From Phycisphaerales bacterium (lineage in GTDB: Bacteria > Planctomycetota > Phycisphaerae > Phycisphaerales > UBA1924), in NCBI GenBank assembly GCA_029260495.1, contig JAJDDD010000006.1:248001-312000 (forward strand): a stretch of DNA of 64,000 bases. Reading direction: 5' to 3'. Every line of letters starts with the position of its first letter. Positions within the stretch are counted from its first letter, which is position 1. Position numbers and translations under genes: made by a program. The notes beneath the pieces were generated by a model. It made no database searches and had not been told where the DNA came from. It worked only from the letters and a program-made list of their open reading frames with translations. Of the stretch, positions 44,265-58,949 are shown in pieces.

Positions 44265-47200
44265 TTATTCTACAACGACAGGGTCGGCGGCTTCGGCACG
44301 CATTTTTGCAAGGCCGTCCCGAAGCGTGGGTTCGGGAAGATCAGAGGGTTGATTCTTCGACTTTGCTGCGGCGGCCGAGTTGTTTTGTGTAGCAACATTA
44401 TTCTTAATGCGGCCATCATCTTCGACATCATCGAGTTTGACACGAACGCGGGTGGAGACACCGCGCTCCTGCATCGTGACGCCGTAGAGCTGATCGACGG
44501 TGGCCATCGTCCGTTTGTGATGCGTGATAATGATGATGTGCGAGTGATCGAGAAGCTGACTGGTGACGGAGCAGAAGCGTGCGATGTTCGCCTCGTCGAG
44601 GGCGGCGTCAACTTCGTCGAGCATGAGGAAGGGCGACGGACGGCTTTTGAAAATCGCCATTAGTAGAGCGACAGCGGTGAGTGTTTTTTCACCGCCGGAG
44701 AGCTGGTCGATTCGGCGCGGTTGTTTACCGGGCGGCTTGGCGCGAACTTCAATGCCTGATTCAAGCCAGTTCACTTCGCCGGTTTCTTCGTCGGGGATGA
44801 GTCGGATTTCTGCGCTGCCTCCGCCGAAGAGCTTGCGGAACATGCCGTCAGCGCCCGCGAATCGCTCGCAGATGCGCTCGAACGTTTCGCGGAAACGTGT
44901 TTCGCTGGCGGTCGCGAGGCGCTCGATGAGGCTCTCAAGATCAGAGCGGGCAGCATCGATGTCGGCGACCTGTTGGATCAGATCCTCATTGCGCGTTTCG
45001 AGCTGGGTTTCCTCTTCGATCGCGTCGAGATTGACAGAGCCCAGCTTCTTGACCTCGCGGCGCAGCTCCTCGGCGCGAGCGGCGGTTTCGTCACGATCAA
45101 TCCGCGCAACATCTCCAGCAGACATCATCGCGCGATACTCGACAAGCTCATCGGCGAGGGGAATGGCGTGCTCTTCAAGAGCGCGCTCTTCGAGGTTTTC
45201 GCGTTTGACCTCGATTTCACGACGGGCGACTTCCAGACTGTGCCAGTCACGCTCGACCTGCGAGGAGCGATCGCGCGCCAGCGTAAGCTGTTCAGCAAGT
45301 TCAGCGGCGCTCTGCTGGGCGCGCTCCAGTTCAACAGCAGCAGCTTGCAAGCGCTGCTCGGCGTCGTCTGCATTCCTTTGAGCTGTTTCGATTTCCGAAG
45401 CGCAGCTTGTAATGGTCGCTTCCTGCTCACTCTTACGTTCGCGCTGGACTGAAAGAATATCTGTCGCGCGGCGGATGTCTGCGTCACTCTGCTCAGCGTC
45501 AAGCTCCAGCCGGCGCAGCTCGCTGCGCACAGATTGGAGTTGGTCCTCCGCCTGGCTGAGCTCAACTTTAAACGTCGTGGCTCGTTCGGTGGCGCTCTCG
45601 AGTTGATCCTGGAGATCAGCCAGTTCCTCTTCGGAGCCCGCAGCGGCCTGGCTGAGCTCTTCATGCAGGCGCAGAAGACTTTCGGCGCGATCGGCCAGCG
45701 TGCGCACTTCTGTATTGATTGTTTCACGCTGCTCAATGATCGCGTCAATATCCTTGCAAAGATACAGACGTTCGCGATCAAAACGGGCGACATCCGATTC
45801 GAGGCGTTCGTGAGCTGCCTGATCACTGACCAACGCTCGCTCTTCAGCGGCGTGCTTCACCCGGAGGTTAGAGAGCGCGCGATCGAGTGCGGCGGCTTCG
45901 GCGTCAACAACGCCAAGTTTCCGGCGCGACTCTGCGATGCGAATATCCAGCGATTCCACTTCAGCGCGTAGTTCAGAAAGCTCAGCGGCGGCGTGAAGCA
46001 GACCTCCCGTAGCGTCGCCGTTCGCAGCGCCTCCAGCGATGATGCGCCCGTCCGGCTCGACAACCTCACCGCGGCGCGTGACGAAACGAACACCGGGAAT
46101 CCCAGCGAGCCTGGTTCGACGCAAGCGCAGGGCGTCGTCTATTTCAGTGACGAGGAGCGTGCGCCCAAGAAGGCGCTCGATGAGCCCGCCTACGCGTGGG
46201 TCTGTTGTGATCAGCGCGAGCGCCGGTTCAGCGTCGGCTGGATCGAGCCCCAGCGCAGATGGATTGAGAGGCGCCGAAGCGCGACCATCAACAAATCCGG
46301 TGAGCGGAAGGAACGCCACGCGACCAGGCAGATCATCAAAAGCGCCGCGCCGGCGCAGTTCATCAATCGACGTGACGACAAGCGATTGCAAATGTTCACC
46401 AAGCGCAGCCTCAATCGCGCCCGCGTGGGCGACATCGGTGTCGATCAACTCCGCGAGCGGCGCGATGACAGGGGTGTAGGGGCCGTGTTCCGCGTCATCA
46501 TCGCGGCGAGTGAGCACTTCGCGCACCGCGTCGCCAAAGCCGGCGCGCGTCTCGATCATTTCGTCAAGCGTAGCGCAACGGCTATCGAGCGCGATTCGCT
46601 GTTGTTCCAGTTTGTTGAGCTGATGCCCCAGACTCTGCTTGCTTGAAAAGAGCGTGTCGGCAGATTGCGATTGAACATCGAGTTTCTGCGCGAGCTGGGT
46701 GACATGTGCAGCCCGCTCTAGGGCCGCGCCCTGAGCTTCAACCAAAGCAGCCGCACTAGCGTCGCGATCCTGCTTGAGCTGCGCCAGACGCTGGTCCAGC
46801 CGCACGTTTTCCGCAGCGATCGAATCAGCGCGCTTGCGGTCAGATTCCACCCGCGCGATCAGTGCGTGGCGCTCGCGATCGATATTGGCGGCGTTGGCGC
46901 GCTGCTCGGCGAGCCGTGAACGACCATCAGCCAGGCGTTGCTGAAGAGCGGTGCGGCTGGCCGCGCTCTCCTCCAGATCGCGATCCGCGTTATCCAGGCG
47001 AGACTGCAAGGCGTCAATGCGCTGTGTGTACTCGGCTGCTGTCTGCGCCAGGCGTTGTGCTTTGGTTTCAGTTTCCGTGAGGCGTGAAAGCTCAACTTTA
47101 ATAAGCTCAGCTGTCTGGATGAGGCTCGCTTCGGTCATGCGCTGGCGTTCAGCCGCGCCCTGCGCAATGTGTTGGGCGGAGGTTTTCTCTCGCTCCAGCT

Positions 47201-48176
47201 CGCGCTCGCATTGAATCAGGTCGTGACGGGTGAGCTCCGCCTGCTGCTTGGCTTCTTCAAGTGATTCAAGCGCAGCCGCAGATTGCTCGCGGGCGCTGGT
47301 AAGCTCATGCAGTCGCGATGTCAGGCCGTCCAGCCGGGCCCGCAGATCGTCGTATTCATCGAAGGCGAGCGCCATGCGCGATCCGCGCAGCTCGACATCC
47401 AGCTCCTTGAACCGACGAGCCTTGGTCGCCTGAGAGCGCACAATGCGCAGACGCCGCTCCGTGGACTGAAGTTGCTCGCGGATGCGAATCAGATTGTTCT
47501 CGGTGCGCTCGAGTTTGCGCTGCGCTTCAATCCGGCGGGCTTTGAACTTGGAAACGCCGGCCGCCTCTTCAAAGATGCCGCGCCGGTCGATTGGGGACGC
47601 GATGAGCATCGCATCGACCTTCCCCTGCTCGATGATGGAGTAGGCGTCCGCCCCGACTCCCGTGTCCAGGAAGAGTTCGCGGATGTCGCGCAGGCGCGCC
47701 TTCTTGGAGTTGATGAGATACTGGCTGTTCCCATCGCGGTAGAGCCGGCGTTCGACATCAACAGTATCGGTGTCGATAGGCAAGGCGCGGCGCCGACCGG
47801 CGCGATTAATGATGCCCTCACCTTCGTCTGAATCGGTGTTATCGTCAGCGGAGGTTGGGTGTTCTTCGAGGCCGGATTCCTCTGCCAGTCGGGCAAGGTC
47901 CGCTTCGGTGAGCAGGGGGTTGTCGAAGGTCAGCGTCACGCTCGCCAGGCCGGCGGGTTTGCGGCCGGCGCTCCCTGCAAAAATCACATCCGCCATCTCC
48001 TTGGAGCGGAGCGATTTCGCCGAGCGCTCGCCGAGCACCCACTTGATCGCGTCAACGACGTTGGACTTCCCGCAGCCATTGGGCCCGACAATGCCGGTGA
48101 TGGGCGCGTCGAAGGTGAACTCGGTCTTGTCCGCGAAGGACTTGAACCCGACGAGTGTGAGTTTGGCTAGGCGCAT
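44265..48176 (-). CDS. smc: Chromosome segregation SMC protein
   Basis: 1303 aa from ATG 48176 ([14 protein letters not shown]); ATG 48194 would add six residues. It compacts and separates sister chromosomes, normally with ScpA and ScpB, which are not here. Walker A is [20 protein letters not shown]; the long coiled coil is split by a hinge near residues 520-670 ([20 protein letters not shown]). The C-terminal ABC part has the signature [20 protein letters not shown] and Walker [18 protein letters not shown] tail of about 75 residues beyond the ATPase is Asn/Asp/Ala-rich and looks disordered, which makes the protein longer than the usual 1150-1200 aa. Confidence 0.96.
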
Positions 48177-48206
48177 CAGGCGATCGACCTCCATGTCGCT
48201 GACAGG

Positions 48207-48374: not shown

Positions 48375-50297
48375 TTATTTCGGCTTGGAGAGCCTTGGAA
48401 CAGGAACAACATAGCTCTTGGGTTTCTCGGGCTCGCTGTCCGTGCTCTGGCCCTCGGGGTCGCCTTCCTCCACCTGGGTTTCGTCAGTCGGGCGATCGGA
48501 GTCGGAAGACTGCTCGTCGGCGCCGTCATCTGAGAACTCGGGCCGCTCCTCGATCGCCTGATCGGTGATGGATCGTAGGAGCTCAGCGGCGAGCTTGTCC
48601 TGCTCAGCGACGAACTGGGCGTTCATTCCGTCATTCTTCCAGATTTCGTGCAAGGCGCCGACAACCTGTGAATAGGTCAAGTTCAGGCCCGGCGCGGGGC
48701 TCTCCGGCGTCTGCTTGTGCGCCAGGAACTCGATGAACTCCACGAGATCCGGGGAGACGGTCGCCTGCGTGCTCTCGCCTGAAACATGATCGAGGTAGTA
48801 GACGCGGAGTGGATCCTGATCGGAGTCAGCCGAGAGGATGAGCCGATCGGACCAGCCGAATACGAGCGTGGGGCGGTTGATGTGCGCGTCGCCGAAGACA
48901 GCGATGCGCGGGTCATCCTGCTGTGTCACATAGATCAGGGGCTTGGTTGAAGGGAGTGAATCGAAGACGAATTTGTCGAAAAAGACACGACGATCGAGCA
49001 GCGGATCAGCGCGGGCGACGAGCGCTTCGTAAGCCGCGATTCGCACCTCGATCGCGTCATCATCGGCTAACTCGCGCAGAGTGAGGTTGATTTGCGGATC
49101 GGACCCGGCGTCGCCGAGGAGTTCGATCGCAGCGACGCGAATCGCGGCGGCGCCGTTCTGGGCCAGGCTCATGAGCTCCGCTGTGGTCAGGGCGTCGCCG
49201 AGCGCCGCGCCGGCGCGAAGGGCGGCGAGACGCGGGAGGATGTCCGGCGAGTCATAGAGATTGCGCATCATCGGAATCGCCGTCTTGCCGATCGATTGAA
49301 GACGCCAACTCAACTCTGAGGCGTATTCAGGCTGTTCTTTGAGCGCGGTCGCGTAACGATGGGCCCACTCCTCAGGAAAACTCCGTTGGATGCGGGCAGC
49401 GAGGAGAAGCTGGACAAAGTCCTCCAGGTTGTCGCGATATTGTTGCGGCGGCGTAATCTCAATGAGTTCTTCATTGACGCCCCGGGCCGTCGGCTCGCGA
49501 TCCCCCGGTGCTTGCGGGAACTGCGTGTTGATCGCGGAGACAATCAAGCGGGCCCGCGCATGAGACGGACTATCAAGCACAAGCGTCAGTTGTCTTGCTT
49601 CAGTGACGACAGCGCCGGAGAGCACCCGGCCGATCCTCCGGTTGATGTCATCTGTGCCGTCCTGAGCGGGATCTGCGAAGGGATTGATGAAGATATCCCC
49701 ACGCGCCTGCGCAATCACGCGCGTGTCAGGAGCGCCGGGGCGCAGCAGGCCGGCGCGCATGTCAGCCGTCCACAAACGCCCGCCTTCAAGGCTGGTTGTC
49801 GCCGTTCCAGGCAGCGCAGTGACGAGGACATCATGAGTTGTTCCGACGGGCGCCCCCGGGGGAATGGCGGCCTGCGCGAGAACCACGGCAGTGTTGAGGT
49901 CTGAAAGAAGCTGGGAGGGTGAAACTGCTTCAAGCCCCCGGCCCTCGCGCCCGACGCCTCGGCGCGTCATCTCCCGCTCAAGAATCGCGCGAACAGATGG
50001 CGGAATGTCTGCGCTTCCTGTGCCATTGAGTCCGACGACAAGTCCGTATCCGGAGACGAGCAGAAACTCCTCCCCGCGAAGGAGCGTTTCGGCCCCGACT
50101 GTCCCGCGCAGGATGGCGGGCGTATCGCGAAGTGTCGCCTCGGGCAGGCGCGGTCGCGGCGTGCGCGGCGGGCCGCCGGGGAAGCAGCCCGAGAGCAGCG
50201 TGACGCCAGCCACCAGCGAGCAGCAGACCAGTGCACACGAAGAGTGGCGACGAGGGCGTCGGTGTTTGGAACAGATGTGTATTCGTGAAGAACCCAT
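48375..50297 (-). CDS. FlgI-like lipoprotein with HEAT-like repeats
   Basis: 640 aa from ATG 50297, supported by AGGA about 6 nt upstream. The signal ends in a clear lipobox LLSGC with Cys38, whereas true FlgI has an ordinary signal peptide. Residues about 65-300 resemble flagellar P-ring FlgI: LLVSGYGLVVGLNGTGSADI, then DLNTAVVLAQAAIPPGAPVG and ALPGTATTSLEGGRLWTADM. After that come HEAT-like helices (about 330-450: PRLAALRAGAALGD, AAIRVAAIELLGDAG, VRIAAYEALVA), a beta-rich part, and an acidic disordered tail. No other flagellar gene is in the window. It follows the HTH membrane protein by 7 bp and precedes smc. Confidence 0.8.
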   Translation of the reverse strand: MGSSRIHICSKHRRPRRHSSCALVCCSLVAGVTLLSGCFPGGPPRTPRPRLPEATLRDTPAILRGTVGAETLLRGEEFLLVSGYGLVVGLNGTGSADIPPSVRAILEREMTRRGVGREGRGLEAVSPSQLLSDLNTAVVLAQAAIPPGAPVGTTHDVLVTALPGTATTSLEGGRLWTADMRAGLLRPGAPDTRVIAQARGDIFINPFADPAQDGTDDINRRIGRVLSGAVVTEARQLTLVLDSPSHARARLIVSAINTQFPQAPGDREPTARGVNEELIEITPPQQYRDNLEDFVQLLLAARIQRSFPEEWAHRYATALKEQPEYASELSWRLQSIGKTAIPMMRNLYDSPDILPRLAALRAGAALGDALTTAELMSLAQNGAAAIRVAAIELLGDAGSDPQINLTLRELADDDAIEVRIAAYEALVARADPLLDRRVFFDKFVFDSLPSTKPLIYVTQQDDPRIAVFGDAHINRPTLVFGWSDRLILSADSDQDPLRVYYLDHVSGESTQATVSPDLVEFIEFLAHKQTPESPAPGLNLTYSQVVGALHEIWKNDGMNAQFVAEQDKLAAELLRSITDQAIEERPEFSDDGADEQSSDSDRPTDETQVEEGDPEGQSTDSEPEKPKSYVVPVPRLSKPK

Positions 50298-50304
50298 GAG
50301 AGTC

Positions 50305-51300
50305 CTAGCTGCGCTTGCCAAGGACGAGGCCGACAATCCCAGCGACGACAGTGAATCCCGCCAGCGCGCCAATGACGACCATAAAATTGTCAGCGATCAC
50401 CGAGGTCAGCCCGTCAAGTGGCGCATTGACAAGGAACGTGAGCATATAAACCAGCCCCAATACCAGCGCAAGAATGGCCGCGAGGCTGAGCCCCGCGGTC
50501 AGCCCGCTGCCGGCCCCGTCATAGGGCTCTGCCATCACCATCCCGCCAGCCATCACAGCCGGCGCCGCGACACCGAACGCCTCCGCGCTTGTCGAACTCT
50601 CAAAAAGGGCTGAACCGCCGGAACTGCTGGCGGGCGTTGGCTCATCGTCCGCAAGCTCTTCAAGAAAATCGACCGCGCCCAGCGATGTGTCATCAGATTC
50701 GCGCGTCAAATCAAGCAGCCCCGACCCCGAGCCCACGGGATCGAGCATGAGATCGTCGTCAACTCCTTCGGTCACAAGCGTCGCTGCAGCAGGGTCAGCG
50801 TCGTCAAGATCATCCGCATCGAAAATGCTGATCCCCGATTTCCCCTTGGAGTCGCCCAGCGACAGCCCCGAGCCCATCCCCAAACCGCTCCCCGTGCCCG
50901 AAGCCCCAGCAAGATCGAGCGCCTCACCCGAAAACGATCCACTCTCCAGCGACAGTTCACCACTCCCACTCTCGAAGCTGATGTCACTCCCGATATCAGC
51001 TCCCGAGGCTGAGCCGGCGCTTGAATCGATCTCCGCATCGTCCATGGGAAACGCCGAACCTCCGGCGGAGTCGGCCAGTGTGATGGAGTCATCAAGCTCC
51101 CCAGCCAGCGGGATCATGCTGCTCATCTCCGGGTCGCCAGCTCCTTCAGCCAGCAAATTCACCTGGTCAACTTTGAACATCAGCTTGTCGCGATCGCGGA
51201 ACTCCTGAATGCGCCCCGAAGAGGCCATCTCCCGCACATCATCCTCAGACTTGCTGAGTTTCTGAGCAGCTTCCTCGAGCGTGTAAAACATCTTGGCCAT
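50305..51300 (-). CDS. Membrane-tethered excisionase-type helix-turn-helix protein
   Basis: 331 aa from ATG 51300, GGAG about 10 nt upstream. Residues 1-52 form an excisionase/MerR-type HTH of the kind used to bind DNA (MFYTLEEAAQKLSKSEDDV, then LMFKVDQVNLLAEG). Residues about 60-260 are an acidic Ser/Gly/Asp-rich linker that looks disordered. Two membrane helices end the protein (SLAAILALVLGLVYMLTFLV and a second near 305-328, FMVVIGALAGFTVVAGIVGL). A DNA- or protein-binding head on a long tether to the membrane is the visible plan. It starts the operon with the FlgI-like lipoprotein. Confidence 0.75.
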   Translation of the reverse strand: MAKMFYTLEEAAQKLSKSEDDVREMASSGRIQEFRDRDKLMFKVDQVNLLAEGAGDPEMSSMIPLAGELDDSITLADSAGGSAFPMDDAEIDSSAGSASGADIGSDISFESGSGELSLESGSFSGEALDLAGASGTGSGLGMGSGLSLGDSKGKSGISIFDADDLDDADPAAATLVTEGVDDDLMLDPVGSGSGLLDLTRESDDTSLGAVDFLEELADDEPTPASSSGGSALFESSTSAEAFGVAAPAVMAGGMVMAEPYDGAGSGLTAGLSLAAILALVLGLVYMLTFLVNAPLDGLTSVIADNFMVVIGALAGFTVVAGIVGLVLGKRS

Positions 51301-51488: not shown

Positions 51489-51521
51489 AAAAAACCCGCA
51501 GGCGAACCGTTCGCCTGCGGG
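51489..51521 (-). terminator. Strong rho-independent terminator of the S9 peptidase operon
   Basis: On the minus strand the 12-bp stem CCCGCAGGCGAA / TTCGCCTGCGGG (51495-51506 / 51510-51521, 3-nt loop) is followed by TTTTTT (plus-strand A run 51489-51494). It lies 35 bp past the S9 stop. Confidence 0.93.
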
Positions 51522-51555
51522 TGTTGGGGTTTCATAAGGCTATCTGCCGGCCTGT

Positions 51556-53799: not shown

Positions 53800-54582
53800 T
53801 TACTCGTTCGCTGGGAGTCGCCGGGGTGCGAAGATCGCCGCCAAAGCCCACAGCGGCGTCGCCAGAGCGAGCGGCGCGATGCTGGCGAGCCATTCCTGGC
53901 CTGTCATCGTGGGCGCCAGGCCGCTCGGAGCGTCGGTGAGGGCGTAAATCGCTGTAAAGGGCGAGGCGAGCCAGACAGTTGGGGTCGGCGTGATCTTGAG
54001 AATGGCGCCGATGAGTTGCGACACAGCCACGCCGCCGACCACAACAAGACACATCGCCATCCAGATCGAGCGTCGCCACGAGGGCTGACGGGCGGCGCCG
54101 ATCGCAATCATCGCGCCCAGAAGCGCCGCCCAGGAAAAAAGCAAGAGCGAAACGCCACCGGTCACCTCCCAGCTCCAGCTCGTCAGCAGCATGGTCGGCC
54201 ACACGATCGCCTGCGCCGGGAGCATCAGCGCGAAGAAGTCAGAGAACGCGCCGCGCACCGGCCGCAGCGCAGGAGCCTGACTCAAACGCACCATAGGCCA
54301 GAGGATAGTCAGCCCAGCAGCTGTCATTACCATCAATGCGCGGGTGGAGTTCTGAAACATGTTCGGCTGGTTCAGCCCGATGAACTGCACGCTGAACACT
54401 GTGATAATCGCTGCGATGAGCAGATAGATCGACCAGCACAACGTGAGCAGGCGCGGTTCTCCCCGTCGGTGAGCCCAGCGATCAGCTGTGTCTTTCGGGG
54501 CGCCAGCCTGCGCGCCGGGCGCCGTGTCGGCCGAGGGCGTCGAAGGTGATGGTTCAGGGGTCGGCGGCACGCGCGGTCTCAT
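53800..54582 (-). CDS. Multi-spanning membrane protein of unknown function, end of the mur cluster
   Basis: 260 aa from ATG 54582 (a TTG lies one codon up); no in-frame ATG occurs for some distance. It overlaps the ftsQ-like gene by 29 nt, so it is probably translated by coupling and belongs to the same transcript. A Pro/Ser/Thr-rich cytoplasmic start of about 40 residues is followed by some six membrane helices, e.g. LLTLCWSIYLLIAAIITVFS and SLLLFSWAALLGAMIAIGAA. I see no family signature. Its place right after ftsQ suggests an envelope or division task, which is only inference. Confidence 0.7.
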   Translation of the reverse strand: MRPRVPPTPEPSPSTPSADTAPGAQAGAPKDTADRWAHRRGEPRLLTLCWSIYLLIAAIITVFSVQFIGLNQPNMFQNSTRALMVMTAAGLTILWPMVRLSQAPALRPVRGAFSDFFALMLPAQAIVWPTMLLTSWSWEVTGGVSLLLFSWAALLGAMIAIGAARQPSWRRSIWMAMCLVVVGGVAVSQLIGAILKITPTPTVWLASPFTAIYALTDAPSGLAPTMTGQEWLASIAPLALATPLWALAAIFAPRRLPANE

Positions 54583-55480
54583 CAATCAGAACGTAGGGAG
54601 TGTAGAGGCGGGCGAGAGGCCGGCCCGCATGAATCCAGCCCACATCGGACAGCAGACTCTCAAAACGAGCGAGTTTGACATCGTCGGCCGGTTCGCCGTC
54701 CGCCCCCGTTCCGGGTGGATGGCCCCAGACCACGCGGGCCCCATCGGACGTAACGATCGTGAGTCGTTGCTCGCGGTCGAAGTCGCCAGCGTCGATCGCC
54801 TGGACCTTGTCGAACGCCGCCGACGCGCGAAGGGCGCCGAGCAGACGAAGTGAAGCAGCCAAATCGTCGCCGATCCACCGCGCCCCGTAAACCAACTCGC
54901 CTTCCGCAGTCATGGGAGGTCCGCCCCACACACCAAGCATGACCGGCAGCGTCCCGGCGGCGCCCGCGCGGTAAGTGATCGGGAGCAATCGTGCGTCAGC
55001 AGAGATGAGCAGATCATTCGCGCCGGCGCGCACAACCGCGGCCGGCGCGCGCCACGGACCAGTCACTTCGATCAGGCCGTGCGCTCGCCGACGGACGATC
55101 GGCCCATGGGCAAACCACCCGGTCGCCGCAAGCTCCTGCTGGGCGAGCTGGAGTGAATCAGAATCGAAGGGATCAAGAGACACGCTGATGCGCACGATCT
55201 GTTCCAGTCGCCAGCGTTCATCCTCAGGCATCCATGTTCTCGGCGCGTCGGGCGCCGCGAGAGAAGCGCCAGCGAGGGCGGGCCATGCGAAGACAACATC
55301 GATGGGATCCGCGCGAAGGTCGCCGACGCGATCCTTTATGGGGCCGACGCCGAGCAGGACCGCGCTGATGAGAACAGCGATGAAGATCGCGGTTCCGGCG
55401 CGCGCGGGCCACGGGGATTCGACGGCGAGCGCCTGGGCGAAGCGGGTTTTCAGGTCGTCGCGCTGGCGTGCCTTTGCCAT
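54554..55480 (-). CDS. ftsQ: FtsQ-like cell division protein
   Basis: 308 aa from ATG 55480, GGAG about 9 nt upstream. Short basic cytoplasmic N-terminus (DLKTRFAQALAVESPWP), one membrane helix about 28-47 (AGTAIFIAVLISAVLLGVGP), then an outer region with FtsQ-type order: ISVSLDPFDSDSLQLAQQEL as a POTRA-like unit, HGLIEVTGPWRAPAAVVRAG, a strand LLISADARLLPIT, then TLPVMLGVWGG. Assignment rests on this pattern and on position after murC-murB-ddl, the classic dcw order. The sequence is diverged, so I am moderately sure. It overlaps ddl by 31 nt. Confidence 0.7.
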   Translation of the reverse strand: MAKARQRDDLKTRFAQALAVESPWPARAGTAIFIAVLISAVLLGVGPIKDRVGDLRADPIDVVFAWPALAGASLAAPDAPRTWMPEDERWRLEQIVRISVSLDPFDSDSLQLAQQELAATGWFAHGPIVRRRAHGLIEVTGPWRAPAAVVRAGANDLLISADARLLPITYRAGAAGTLPVMLGVWGGPPMTAEGELVYGARWIGDDLAASLRLLGALRASAAFDKVQAIDAGDFDREQRLTIVTSDGARVVWGHPPGTGADGEPADDVKLARFESLLSDVGWIHAGRPLARLYTPYVLIDETARAADP

Positions 55481-56421
55481 GATGGAGAACTCCGGAATGT
55501 GGTTGTTGTGTGCGCATCGCGCAGCGCGAGGATCACGAGATGGGCGCAGAGCGCGGGCATATCCAACTCCAGCCCGGGCGGCAGCGCGCGCGCCGCCATG
55601 GGCAGTAGCGAATGGTCGGTGAAACCGGGCATGGTGTTGAGTTCGAGCAGCCAGGGTGTTCCGGCGGAATCGAGGATGAAATCAACGCGGGCGAGGTGGC
55701 GCGCGCCAAGCGCGTGAAAGAGCTGAACCGCGGCGGCGCTGATGCGCTCAGCGACTCCCAGCGGGAGTGCGGGATGGGGGGTGTAGGTCGTATCGTTGCG
55801 GGCGTATTTGGCTTCGTAGTCGTACAGACCGTCGGCGGGTGTGATTTCGATAATGGGAAGGGGGGCGCCGTCAAGAACGGAGACTGTGAGCTCGCGGCCG
55901 GCGATGTAGGGCTCGATCATGTACGGACGACCGGAGGCGGCGGCGCAGGTGTGCGCATGGCGCCAGTCAGCTTCGGAGTAGCAGACGAAGAGGCCAACGG
56001 TTGAGCCTTCGTGGATCGGTTTGGCGACGACGGGGAGCGGGAGCGGGCAGGCGGGGTCAGTTGGGGTGAGGACGCAACTTGTTGTTGTGGGGACGCCGAT
56101 CGAGAGGGCGATGGATTTGGTCGCGATTTTGTCCATCGCGAGGCGGGCGGCGCGAGGGCCGGCGCCGACGAAGGGGCGGCCGTCTGCTTCGAGAAGATCC
56201 TGAAGCGGGCCGCCTTCTCCCCAGGGGCCGTGGAGGGCGGGGAAGAAGAGGTCGGTCTTGATCTGCGCGAGGCGATCCTGATCGAGCGCATCAATGACGA
56301 GGCGGTCGACTTCGAAGGCGTCGGCGCATTCGAGGGCGGCGGCGATCGCGGCGGAGCTTTCAAGACTGACTTCGCGTTCGGCGTCGCTTCCGCCGCCGAG
56401 CACCGTGACGGTGGGCTTCAT
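55450..56421 (-). CDS. ddl: D-alanine--D-alanine ligase
   Basis: 323 aa from ATG 56421, which overlaps the murB stop by 4 nt. ATP-grasp enzyme that makes the D-Ala-D-Ala end of the peptidoglycan stem. Motifs: VTVLGGGSDAEREVSLESSA (N-domain), FPALHGPWGEGGPLQDLLEA, VVAKPIHEGSTVGLFV, MIEPYIAGRELTVSVLDG, ARVDFILDSAGTPWLLELNT and MPGFTDHSLLP. All expected ATP and metal residues look intact. The longer frame upstream runs inside murB and is not a gene. Confidence 0.96.
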   Translation of the reverse strand: MKPTVTVLGGGSDAEREVSLESSAAIAAALECADAFEVDRLVIDALDQDRLAQIKTDLFFPALHGPWGEGGPLQDLLEADGRPFVGAGPRAARLAMDKIATKSIALSIGVPTTTSCVLTPTDPACPLPLPVVAKPIHEGSTVGLFVCYSEADWRHAHTCAAASGRPYMIEPYIAGRELTVSVLDGAPLPIIEITPADGLYDYEAKYARNDTTYTPHPALPLGVAERISAAAVQLFHALGARHLARVDFILDSAGTPWLLELNTMPGFTDHSLLPMAARALPPGLELDMPALCAHLVILALRDAHTTTTFRSSPSWQRHASATT

Positions 56422-57299
56422 GGTGTCTCTCCCCGGCGCCAGATGCGGAGCTCGGTTTCGAGTTCGACGCCGATGTGCGCGCGGACGCGATCGCGGACTT
56501 GATCGATGAGCTTGAGTATGTCGGCTGCGCGGGCGTATGGAGTTGTGGTGATGAAGTTGGCGTGAACATCGGAAACCTGGGCGGCGCCGACGGCGAGCTC
56601 CTTGCATCCTGCTTCGTCGATGAGGCGACCGGCGCTGACGCGCTCGGTGTCGAGGGTTGGGTTTTTGAAGACGCAGCCGGCGGATTTTTCAGCCATAGGC
56701 TGGGTGCGGGATTTGTAAGCCATCACCTCCTTGACGCGGCGGCGGACGGCGTCGGGATCGCAGGGACGGACGCGCAGATCGACCGTCGTGATGATGAGCT
56801 GGTCGAGCCCGGAATGGCGATAGCTGAAGTCAATTTGATCGCGCGGGAGTGTGACTTCCTCACCGTCGCGAGTGAGCGCGCACACGGCGAGGACACTTTC
56901 GCAGATTTCCCCGAAGGCGCCCCCTGCGTTCATGACGATCGCGCCGCCGACCGTGGCGGGGATTCCGGTGAGGCCTTCGAGGCCGGCGAGACCTTCGCGG
57001 GCGGTGTGTGTGATGAGCTTTGGGAGATTGGCGCCGGCGCCGACGCGGAGCAGGTCGTCCTCGACGCGCTCGACATTGTTGATGTGGCTCAGCGAGAGCA
57101 CGAGGCCGTCAACGCCGTCGTCGTGGACGAGTAGGTTGGCGCCGTCGCCGAGCACGCGGATGGTTTCATAGCGCGCGACAAGCGCGCGAAGTTCATCGAG
57201 TGTGCGCGGCGTTGCGAGAGCATCGGCGCGGCCGCCTACGCGGAACCATGTGGGGATGGCGGCGTCTTTTTCAATCGTAATGGGGGGAGCTGCGGGCAT
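56418..57299 (-). CDS. murB: UDP-N-acetylenolpyruvoylglucosamine reductase
   Basis: 293 aa. Reduces UDP-GlcNAc-enolpyruvate to UDP-MurNAc with NADPH and FAD. FAD-binding part: TWFRVGGRADALATPRTLDE, then RVLGDGANLLVHDDGVDGLV and LEGLTGIPATVGGAIVMNAG. The conserved Tyr is in DFSYRHSG, and the proton-donor position reads EKSAGCVFKNPTLD. The final Glu lies in LETELRIW. Eight bp after murC and overlapping ddl by 4 nt, so in one operon. Confidence 0.96.
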   Translation of the reverse strand: MPAAPPITIEKDAAIPTWFRVGGRADALATPRTLDELRALVARYETIRVLGDGANLLVHDDGVDGLVLSLSHINNVERVEDDLLRVGAGANLPKLITHTAREGLAGLEGLTGIPATVGGAIVMNAGGAFGEICESVLAVCALTRDGEEVTLPRDQIDFSYRHSGLDQLIITTVDLRVRPCDPDAVRRRVKEVMAYKSRTQPMAEKSAGCVFKNPTLDTERVSAGRLIDEAGCKELAVGAAQVSDVHANFITTTPYARAADILKLIDQVRDRVRAHIGVELETELRIWRRGETP

Positions 57300-57307
57300 G
57301 GTGTCGG

Positions 57308-58837
57308 TCAGGCGTCGGGAGCCTTGAGGTGGAGGTATTCGTAGGCGACTTTCCAGACGGGGCCGGCGCCCATGACGACGAGGAGGTCGCCGGGTCGGCA
57401 GATGGTCTCGAGTTGTTCGACGATTGCTTCGAAGGGGTAGAGATGCATGGCGCGGACGCTGCGCGAGCGGAGGCGATCGACGAGGTCGGCGGCGCTGACT
57501 TTTGTTTTTTCAATTTCGGAGTCGCGCACAAAGTAAATGTGGGGGACGATGACGATATCGGCCTGCGAAAAGGATTGGGCGAACTCTTCAAGCAGGAAGC
57601 GCGTGCGGCTGTGCTGATGAGGCTGGAAGACGCAGATGAGGCGTCCGTCGCGTGATTCGGGTTTTTCAAACTGACGCAAAGCGCGGAGGGTTGCTTCGAT
57701 TTCGGTTGGATGATGGCCGTAATCGTCATAGACAGTGACGCCGTCTCGCATGCCGAGTTTCTGCGTGCGTCGATCGACGCCCTGGAATGTGGAGAGGGCG
57801 TGGGAGACGGGTTCTGGTTCGGCGCCGAGTGAGAGAGCGAGGGAGGCGGCGAAGGCGCTGTTGAGTGCGTTGTGCTCGCCGGGCAGTGTGAGGGTCCATG
57901 AGAGGGCGCGTTCGTCGGGTGTTGTGAGCGAGACGAGGCGCGCGTCGGTGTCGTACTCGACGCGCCAGTCGGCGCTGGGTGCGAAGCCGACGGTTTCGAC
58001 GGCGCACTCAAGGCCGGCGGTGACTTCGCGGCGGTGGGCGCTGTCATGGCCGATGAGGAGTTTTCCGCTTTGGGATTGGGGCGGGAGAAGGCGGGCGAAC
58101 TCGTGGAATGCTTCAATGACAGCGTCGACGGCGCCGTAGACGTCAAGGTGGTCTGCTTCGACGACGGAAATGGAGGCGATGCGCGGGCGGAGATTGTGGA
58201 AGGAGCGGTTGTATTCGCAGGCTTCCGCGACGAGAAGGCCGGGGGCGTCGGCGAGCGGTCCCGCGGGGATGGCGGGGGCGCCAAGCCGGAAGCCGGAGCC
58301 TCGAGCGGGGCCGGTCGAGTTGGAGGACGTTTGCGGGAGGTGTGGAGAGGTGGCGCCGACGATGACCGTGGGGTCGAGATGTGCGGTGGTGAGGACATGG
58401 GCGAGCATGGCGCAGGTGGTGGACTTGCCGTGTGTTCCAGCGAGCGCGACACCGGTGGCTGACACCATGCAGGCGCCGAGCGCTTCGGCGTAGGTCATGG
58501 TGGTGACGCCGCGGGTTTGGGCGTCAAGTAGAAGGGGATGATCCGGGGCGATTGCGGCGGAGGCGATGACCAGGTCGCACTCCTCGGGGAGAGCGAGCGG
58601 GTGATCACGCGAGTCGCGCTCGAAGATGATGGGAAGGTTGCCCGCGGCGAGGGCGTCGGTGACATGGGTCGAGGCGATGTCGGAGCCGGCGACGTTGGCG
58701 CCGCGGGCTGACAGGAGTTGGGCGAGTCCTGACATGCCGCACCCACCGATGCCGACGAGAAATGCATGGGCGCCTGGCGTTGGGAAGCCGGCGATGGTTG
58801 GACTGGTCGCTTGAGCGCTTTTGAGTTCGGTGGGCAT
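57308..58837 (-). CDS. murC: UDP-N-acetylmuramate--L-alanine ligase
   Basis: 509 aa from ATG 58837 (MPTELKSAQATS); the frame continues to 58927 but that end is not conserved-looking. Adds L-Ala to UDP-MurNAc in the cytoplasm. Domain 1: HAFLVGIGGCGMSGLAQLLS. ATP site: GVALAGTHGKSTTCAMLAHV. Central: VVEADHLDVYGAVDAVIEAF; late: VTVYDDYGHHPTEIEATLRA. Slightly longer than usual, with a Ser/Pro insertion near residue 160. First gene of the murC-murB-ddl-ftsQ run; upstream mur genes (murG, ftsW, mraY) are not here. Divergent from the NUDIX gene, 112 bp apart. Confidence 0.95.
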   Translation of the reverse strand: MPTELKSAQATSPTIAGFPTPGAHAFLVGIGGCGMSGLAQLLSARGANVAGSDIASTHVTDALAAGNLPIIFERDSRDHPLALPEECDLVIASAAIAPDHPLLLDAQTRGVTTMTYAEALGACMVSATGVALAGTHGKSTTCAMLAHVLTTAHLDPTVIVGATSPHLPQTSSNSTGPARGSGFRLGAPAIPAGPLADAPGLLVAEACEYNRSFHNLRPRIASISVVEADHLDVYGAVDAVIEAFHEFARLLPPQSQSGKLLIGHDSAHRREVTAGLECAVETVGFAPSADWRVEYDTDARLVSLTTPDERALSWTLTLPGEHNALNSAFAASLALSLGAEPEPVSHALSTFQGVDRRTQKLGMRDGVTVYDDYGHHPTEIEATLRALRQFEKPESRDGRLICVFQPHQHSRTRFLLEEFAQSFSQADIVIVPHIYFVRDSEIEKTKVSAADLVDRLRSRSVRAMHLYPFEAIVEQLETICRPGDLLVVMGAGPVWKVAYEYLHLKAPDA

Positions 58838-58949
58838 AGAGGAAACGTATCGGCGAAGGCGCTGGTGGCGGTGCAAATGACAGGATTGATTGGGGTGAGA
58901 CGCTTGGGGTCGTTGAAGCGGGCTCACAGTTGGGGGCTATGCTGGGGGG

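Follow-up and report, generated by a model that had tools for sequence, protein, structure and literature searches.

The locus described here raises the question of what a domain of FlgI, a known flagellar component, does on a predicted lipoprotein whose gene stands next to smc. The gene lies in a stretch of 64,000 nucleotides from a Phycisphaerales bacterium (contig JAJDDD010000006.1, positions 248,001 to 312,000 of the forward strand), which was analysed as a whole and is referred to below as the window. The safest statement is that it is a core gene of the class, that its product is related to FlgI, lipid-anchored, of old origin and without a flagellar role, and that it is genomically linked to smc. 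In the parts of the literature that were accessible, which comprised open-licence papers, no account of such a FlgI-HEAT lipoprotein was found, so its absence from the literature is unproven. The accessible text of PMC12758564 deals with how a P-ring protein of anammox bacteria is signal-tagged for export, and that protein is another one than the lipoprotein considered here.

Domain architecture of the lipoprotein

The coding sequence (48375..50297, minus strand) starts with ATG at 50297 and stops at 48375-48377; its translation gives a precursor of 640 aa and a mature protein of 603 aa. The signal peptide (50184..50297, minus strand) contains the lipobox LLSGC, and lipidation is predicted at Cys38 (50184-50186). 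The lipobox pattern was also recognised in 59 of the 80 named relatives and in 15 of 19 further ones. It should be noted that a lipobox predicts a lipid anchor and does not tell which membrane, inner or outer, receives it.

Based on the Pfam search, residues 81-305 belong to the FlgI family (PF02119, E=1.7e-21, 77 bits against a cut-off of 25.3). Since this match covers only profile positions 16-227 of 343, the last third of FlgI is absent from the lipoprotein. Residues 374-432 matched HEAT_2 (E=2.9e-06, 27.9 bits against a cut-off of 27.7), and this match, together with the helical solenoid in the structural model, places the protein among the HEAT-repeat proteins. A row-by-row Pfam scan of alignment A3, for which the analyst picked 29 relatives, found FlgI in 29 of 29 rows (E<=0.01) and HEAT_2 in 28 of them. 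The scores with the NCBIfam models for FlgI remained far below the cut-offs (65.5 against 300 bits for NF003676 and 33.8 against 557 bits for NF009430).

The AlphaFold2 model, calculated with 54 sequences over 603 residues (pLDDT 88.6, pTM 0.83), predicts three domains followed by a disordered acidic tail. The first domain is a FlgI-type module of IRU and OR (mature residues 20-245; 49452..50129, minus strand). A Foldseek search of the model against the PDB returned four hits at E<=0.001, all of them P-ring subunits (1.4e-13 to 6.1e-13). With VIA-align, residues 28-268 of the model were superimposed on residues 20-246 of FlgI with Z-scores of 15.2-15.6 over 200-204 residues; the rmsd of 8.5-8.9 Å across both domains indicates that the domain angles differ from those of P-ring chains. 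According to the accessible part of PMC8298488, mature FlgI consists of OR (1-11, 160-230), IRU (12-159) and IRL (231-346). If the PDB chain numbering includes a 19-residue signal peptide, as the alignment positions of Lys63 and Lys95 suggest, the modelled match corresponds to IRU plus OR, with IRL replaced. Going by the partial profile match and by the superposition, which stops at FlgI 245/246, the protein is not a full-length three-domain FlgI.

The second domain is a HEAT-repeat solenoid (mature residues 254-391; 49014..49427, minus strand), which is supported by HEAT_2, by the helices of the model and by matches to alphaRep and other HEAT-repeat structures with VIA Z of about 9-12. It is followed by a conserved C-terminal beta/alpha domain (mature residues 392-549; 48540..49013, minus strand). 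Folded alone, this domain reached a pLDDT of 88.7 and found no PDB structure at E<=0.001, the best VIA Z being 2.8; the best hit of a PDB sequence search had E=0.2. Pfam gave nothing for the window row; among 42 rows, one unrelated family was matched weakly in 2 and another in 1. Judging from the model, the domain (48540-49013) possibly has an undescribed fold, and we do not claim a new one. The acidic tail (mature residues 550-603; 48378..48539, minus strand) is predicted to be disordered, with pLDDT <50 at mature residues 550-585 and a low conservation of 0.24. A short VVP motif was seen near the end of this otherwise variable tail (window positions 48378-48450) in most rows of alignment A1 and could be a binding peptide. 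The description in the earlier note, a FlgI-like domain on a lipoprotein with HEAT-like repeats and an acidic tail, is thus borne out in each of its parts.

Relation to the flagellar FlgI

Two FlgI-family matches were found in the genome, namely the lipoprotein and a full-length flgI on a different contig (profile positions 2-343 of 343, E=3.6e-61), with flgH beside it. The latter locus comprises, in a row, flgF, flgG, flgA, flgH, flgI, flgK, flgL, fliW, csrA and flagellin; flgI and flgH were identified by profile (PF02119 and PF02107) and the remaining names were given by eye. The earlier note was therefore right to place the lipoprotein gene away from flagellar genes, and the second, canonical flgI next to flgH and flgA that it had proposed to look for exists. 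The case that it had named as decisive against its idea, a flagellated strain with this gene as its only flgI, does not apply here. With a full-length flgI standing among flagellar genes elsewhere in the genome, the lipoprotein gene is not the P-ring gene of the flagellum. Neither a flagellar gene context nor a loss along with flagella, which would characterise a P-ring orthologue, was found for it.

The maximum-likelihood tree of the FlgI part agrees with this conclusion. In this unrooted tree of planctomycete sequences, a 100/100 branch separated the lipoproteins (29 sequences) from canonical FlgI (31 sequences), and the lipoprotein was located outside the canonical clade. Two separate clades with such support indicate an old paralogue and not a stray copy. 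In addition, each side of the tree holds members of the class as well as sequences from beyond it, and hence the split seems to predate the divergence of these classes.

The short Pfam match might alternatively be explained by a decayed or misassembled flgI fragment, as the profile is matched from position 16 to 227 only. In contrast to such a fragment, the lipoproteins of dozens of genomes have intact frames and share one three-part architecture, they form a clade of their own, and in the alignments of relatives each of the three parts (FlgI, HEAT and C-terminal) contains residues that never vary. This explanation, to which we assign next to no probability, is refuted by the conservation.

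A more serious alternative is that the lipoprotein is a flagellar accessory, that is, an alternative or additional subunit of the P ring or of a basal disk, used when flagella are built. The homology to FlgI and the frequency of flagella in the class speak for it. The residues by which FlgI meets the rod speak against it. According to the accessible part of PMC8298488, Lys63 and Lys95 of FlgI are critical for P-ring formation and efficient assembly on the rod. The Lys63 position was basic in 15 of 73 lipoproteins vs 25 of 31 canonical planctomycete FlgI, and the Lys95 position in 1 of 73 vs 17 of 31; the last figure means that a basic residue at the Lys95 position is no fixed feature even of canonical planctomycete FlgI. 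As far as the alignment can tell, the rod-facing lysines are mostly gone from the lipoproteins, which sets them apart from P-ring proteins.

The distribution of the gene bears on the same alternative. In a scan of 100 genomes of the family, 96 matched the lipoprotein at E<=1e-3, including G021, G054 and G077, which matched only at the level of canonical FlgI. The class was then covered by 198 genomes with a profile of 54 rows, and an E of 1e-50 or lower was taken as the full-length form. As a result, 194 genomes matched and 189 had the full-length lipoprotein; in five (G402, G433, G466, G532 and G546) the match did not exceed 9.9e-16 in strength, so these were classed as being without it, and no match was obtained in G516, G523, G539 and G544. 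Among the 155 good genomes (>=90% complete, <=5% contaminated), 153 had the full-length form, the exceptions being G402 and G532. In the same sample, FlhA was present in 147/198 genomes (120/155 good ones) and FlgH in 137/198 (114/155). Neither of the two was detected in 48 genomes, 45 of which had the full-length lipoprotein; for the good genomes this was true of 35/155, and all 35, including the single-contig genomes G224, G437 and G442, retained it.

This retention in 35/35 good genomes without FlhA and FlgH means that the lipoprotein does not depend on flagella. Together with the separate full-length flgI, it strongly supports one part of the earlier proposal, namely that the FlgI core was reused outside the flagellum. 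With the gene also lying outside the flagellar locus of its genome, we regard a flagellar accessory as very improbable. What could still be put forward in its favour are the genomes G022 and G065, where FlhA is present and the FlgI profile found only the lipoprotein. G022 also lacks FlgH by profile. The absence of a canonical FlgI from these two genomes may reflect either an assembly gap or a motor without a P ring.

Outside the class the lipoprotein is less common. A scan of 294 genomes of the phylum, using a broader profile of 29 rows and an E below 1e-90 for the full-length form, found it in 43 genomes, i.e., all 22 of the class and 21 others, which belong to the families f30 (16), f71 (3), f80 (1) and f51 (1). 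On this evidence (43/294) the lipoprotein is not phylum-wide, and absences outside the class carry little weight because at most four candidates per genome were scored. In f37 (G129, G172, G190), FlgI-like and HEAT-like pieces matched on separate contigs, which may represent a split copy. The named relatives come mostly from metagenome genomes of Phycisphaerales and Phycisphaeraceae.

Linkage to smc

On the minus strand of the window, the genes follow one another in the order S9 peptidase, HTH-type protein, lipoprotein, smc and DUF456 protein, with a 13-pair hairpin behind the first. The smc gene (44265..48194, minus strand; Pfam SMC_N, E=3.1e-62, and SMC_hinge) is the next one downstream of the lipoprotein gene, on the same strand and 180 nt away; the earlier note, too, had placed the two genes side by side. 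The upstream gene (50305..51300, minus strand) ends 7 nt before the lipoprotein gene. Its product is unusual in having an HTH_17-like N-terminus (below the Pfam cut-off), an acidic middle and two hydrophobic stretches towards the C-terminus, and is perhaps a membrane-bound HTH protein; among the relatives whose loci were read, a gene of this type adjoins the lipoprotein gene in just two genomes (L034/L043 and L037). The terminator-like hairpin, known from the consensus scan only (51494..51522, minus strand, 13 pairs), follows the S9 peptidase gene, so that the HTH-type gene, the lipoprotein gene and smc would form a later unit. In the same scan, five terminator-like sites were found vs 3.0 (sd 1.8) in shuffled sequences; three of them are weak and lie on the minus strand ahead of the lipoprotein gene, and no such site was detected on that strand between the lipoprotein gene and smc. 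About 4 kb upstream of the lipoprotein gene lies the end of a division and cell-wall cluster (54554-58927) with a MurC-type ligase, MurB, Ddl and FtsQ. FtsQ and Ddl were seen near the lipoprotein gene elsewhere only in the nearest relative (L034/L043).

The adjacency to smc proved far stronger than a single window could show. Of the 80 named loci, 14 of 10 kb or shorter were set aside; in 51 of the remaining 66, smc starts no more than 400 nt behind the lipoprotein gene and runs in the same direction. It was within 400 nt in 17 of 19 further loci sampled across families, the exceptions being L185 (f80), with no smc in reach, and L196, with a gap of 2.8 kb. These figures are counts and not probabilities, as the relatives are not independent. 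In most of the 14 short loci smc was also next, and it was not found in L108 and L120. The loci of f30, f71 and f51, all outside the class (L186-L192), had smc next in 7/7, and among five loci from genomes without FlhA and FlgH (L183, L196, L197, L198, L101) smc was directly next in four. The link is not obligatory, since the two genes were non-adjacent in 15/66 named loci.

As a control, the 8 kb before smc were inspected in 17 genomes of other families without the full-length form. No full relative was found there, the place being taken by other genes, and the profiles matched only a HEAT region in L256 (E=4.7e-07) and a FlgI region in L247; an eighteenth genome (G204) gave no smc match. In L249-L253, L256 and L259, a frame of 600-750 aa before smc starts or continues, by eye, in an ATP-cone-like way. 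The match in L247 (5983-7500; genome G144, family f28) turned out to be a different FlgI-like lipoprotein before smc, 506 aa long, without a HEAT match and just under the Pfam FlgI cut-off (E=1.5e-05, 24.5 bits against 25.3). This type (loci L247 and L260-L277) occurred in 15/15 f28 genomes tested and 0/11 others; it is about 500 aa long, has a lipobox in 14/15 and is followed by smc in 10/15, once with a gap of 934 nt. One of the five f28 genomes without smc next has a contig end there. Because a lipoprotein of a different kind thus also precedes smc, a FlgI-type lipoprotein at this place is a recurrent arrangement.

It is possible that the protein is an ordinary wall-binding lipoprotein and that its position before smc is the remainder of an old operon of growth genes, with no structural or functional link to SMC. 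The genes proximal to smc do vary by lineage: where the full-length form is absent they look ATP-cone-like by eye, and in a subset of loci dCTP deaminase-like and ribonucleotide reductase-like genes (by eye) lie divergently upstream. Because of these differences, smc can be said to sit among assorted growth genes. On the other hand, no other feature of these loci comes close to the lipoprotein-smc pair in constancy: in the 85 pooled loci, the smc cluster was present in 71 and the next commonest neighbour cluster in 31. Moreover, the pair holds outside the class, apart from L185, and is mirrored in f28. We therefore consider a mere operon relic rather doubtful, if conceivable.

The opposite proposal would be that a FlgI-derived, lipid-anchored ring or arc and SMC act in one process, the former marking or shaping the site of growth or division from the outer side of the cytoplasmic membrane and the latter ordering the chromosome inside. 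If true, this would explain the conservation of the pair in more than one class and the presence of FlgI-like lipoproteins of two kinds before smc. We find this proposal improbable.

Proposed role and comparison with known systems

Based on the above results, we favour, with about an even chance of being right, the reading that the protein is a lipid-anchored, wall-facing periplasmic scaffold, an ancient non-flagellar FlgI paralogue that reuses the P-ring module in a housekeeping role of the envelope. Sequence comparison shows that the protein is a FlgI paralogue with this domain architecture, that nearly all genomes of the class retain it whether or not they have flagella, and that its gene is linked to smc; wall contact, oligomerisation, docking of partners, co-transcription and a role in growth or division are what we infer from them. 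The lipoprotein signal would direct export, and the N-terminal lipid predicted from the lipobox would fix the protein to a membrane. Of the FlgI domains the protein keeps IRU and OR, which would lie in the periplasm; OR is the one believed to face peptidoglycan. The HEAT solenoid and the lineage-specific beta/alpha domain, which replace IRL, may offer docking surfaces for partner proteins, and the scaffold possibly forms side-by-side arcs or rings. It would serve a housekeeping envelope process, its production being tied to smc via shared transcription. Genes that are neighbours in an operon need not act together. That the process belongs to growth or division is an attractive possibility.

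A related idea is that the protein closes into a periplasmic ring, or forms a collar around a pore, at the outer membrane as part of a non-flagellar secretion or appendage system. In the P ring, according to the accessible part of PMC8298488, all three FlgI domains touch their neighbours, and the OR resembles the secretin N3 domain and the wall-binding C-terminal domain of MotY. Two of the three neighbour-touching domains are kept here, and the predicted lipid anchor and the near-universal occurrence in the class would suit a collar as well. However, the IRL-IRL contacts are made by the missing domain, so that a ring is possible while short of one contact, and the neighbours scanned with Pfam in the window include no genes for secretion or pili. 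The candidate that first comes to mind in planctomycetes, crateriform structures, which Planctopirus limnophila has according to excerpts of PMC5394234, fits poorly: the accessible part of PMC7783415 lists them as not observed in Poriferisphaera corsica, as 'no' for one related Phycisphaerae strain and as not determined for two more. A subunit of crateriform pits was considered for the ring and set aside for this reason. Taken together, a closed ring or collar appears unlikely to us.

A non-flagellar paralogue present almost throughout a whole bacterial class would show that planctomycetes, early in their history, recruited a P-ring module to a different task in the envelope. The gene would be a concrete candidate in bacteria whose division and wall biology are poorly understood; the accessible text of PMC10632474 reports that planctomycetes have lost ftsZ and that Phycisphaerae divide by binary fission. 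The main text of this transposon screen of Planctopirus limnophila, as far as accessible, contains neither 'flg' nor 'smc', the gene lists being placed in its supplements. Since smc recurs as the neighbour, a connection of the envelope with the chromosome can be tested directly.

Among known systems, the HEAT-repeat proteins (alphaRep, the phycocyanin lyase CpcE/F, YibA and others) share the solenoid architecture and indicate no specific relative. The likeness to secretin N3 and to wall-binding domains of the MotY/OmpA type is that of the FlgI OR, as described in the accessible part of PMC8298488, and the lipoprotein has kept the OR. The f28 lipoprotein is comparable in its lipobox, its FlgI-type segment and the frequent position before smc, and differs in its smaller size (506 aa in G144), the weak FlgI match and the missing HEAT match. 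The closest counterpart is FlgI itself (PF02119; PDB 7bgl, 7cbl, 7nvg, 8z5n), with homologous IRU and OR domains and export in both cases. Unlike FlgI, the lipoprotein has a predicted lipid anchor, no IRL, a HEAT solenoid, an additional C-terminal domain and an acidic tail; its rod-facing lysines are mostly absent, and its gene lies outside the flagellar locus, is kept in genomes without flagella and usually stands next to smc.
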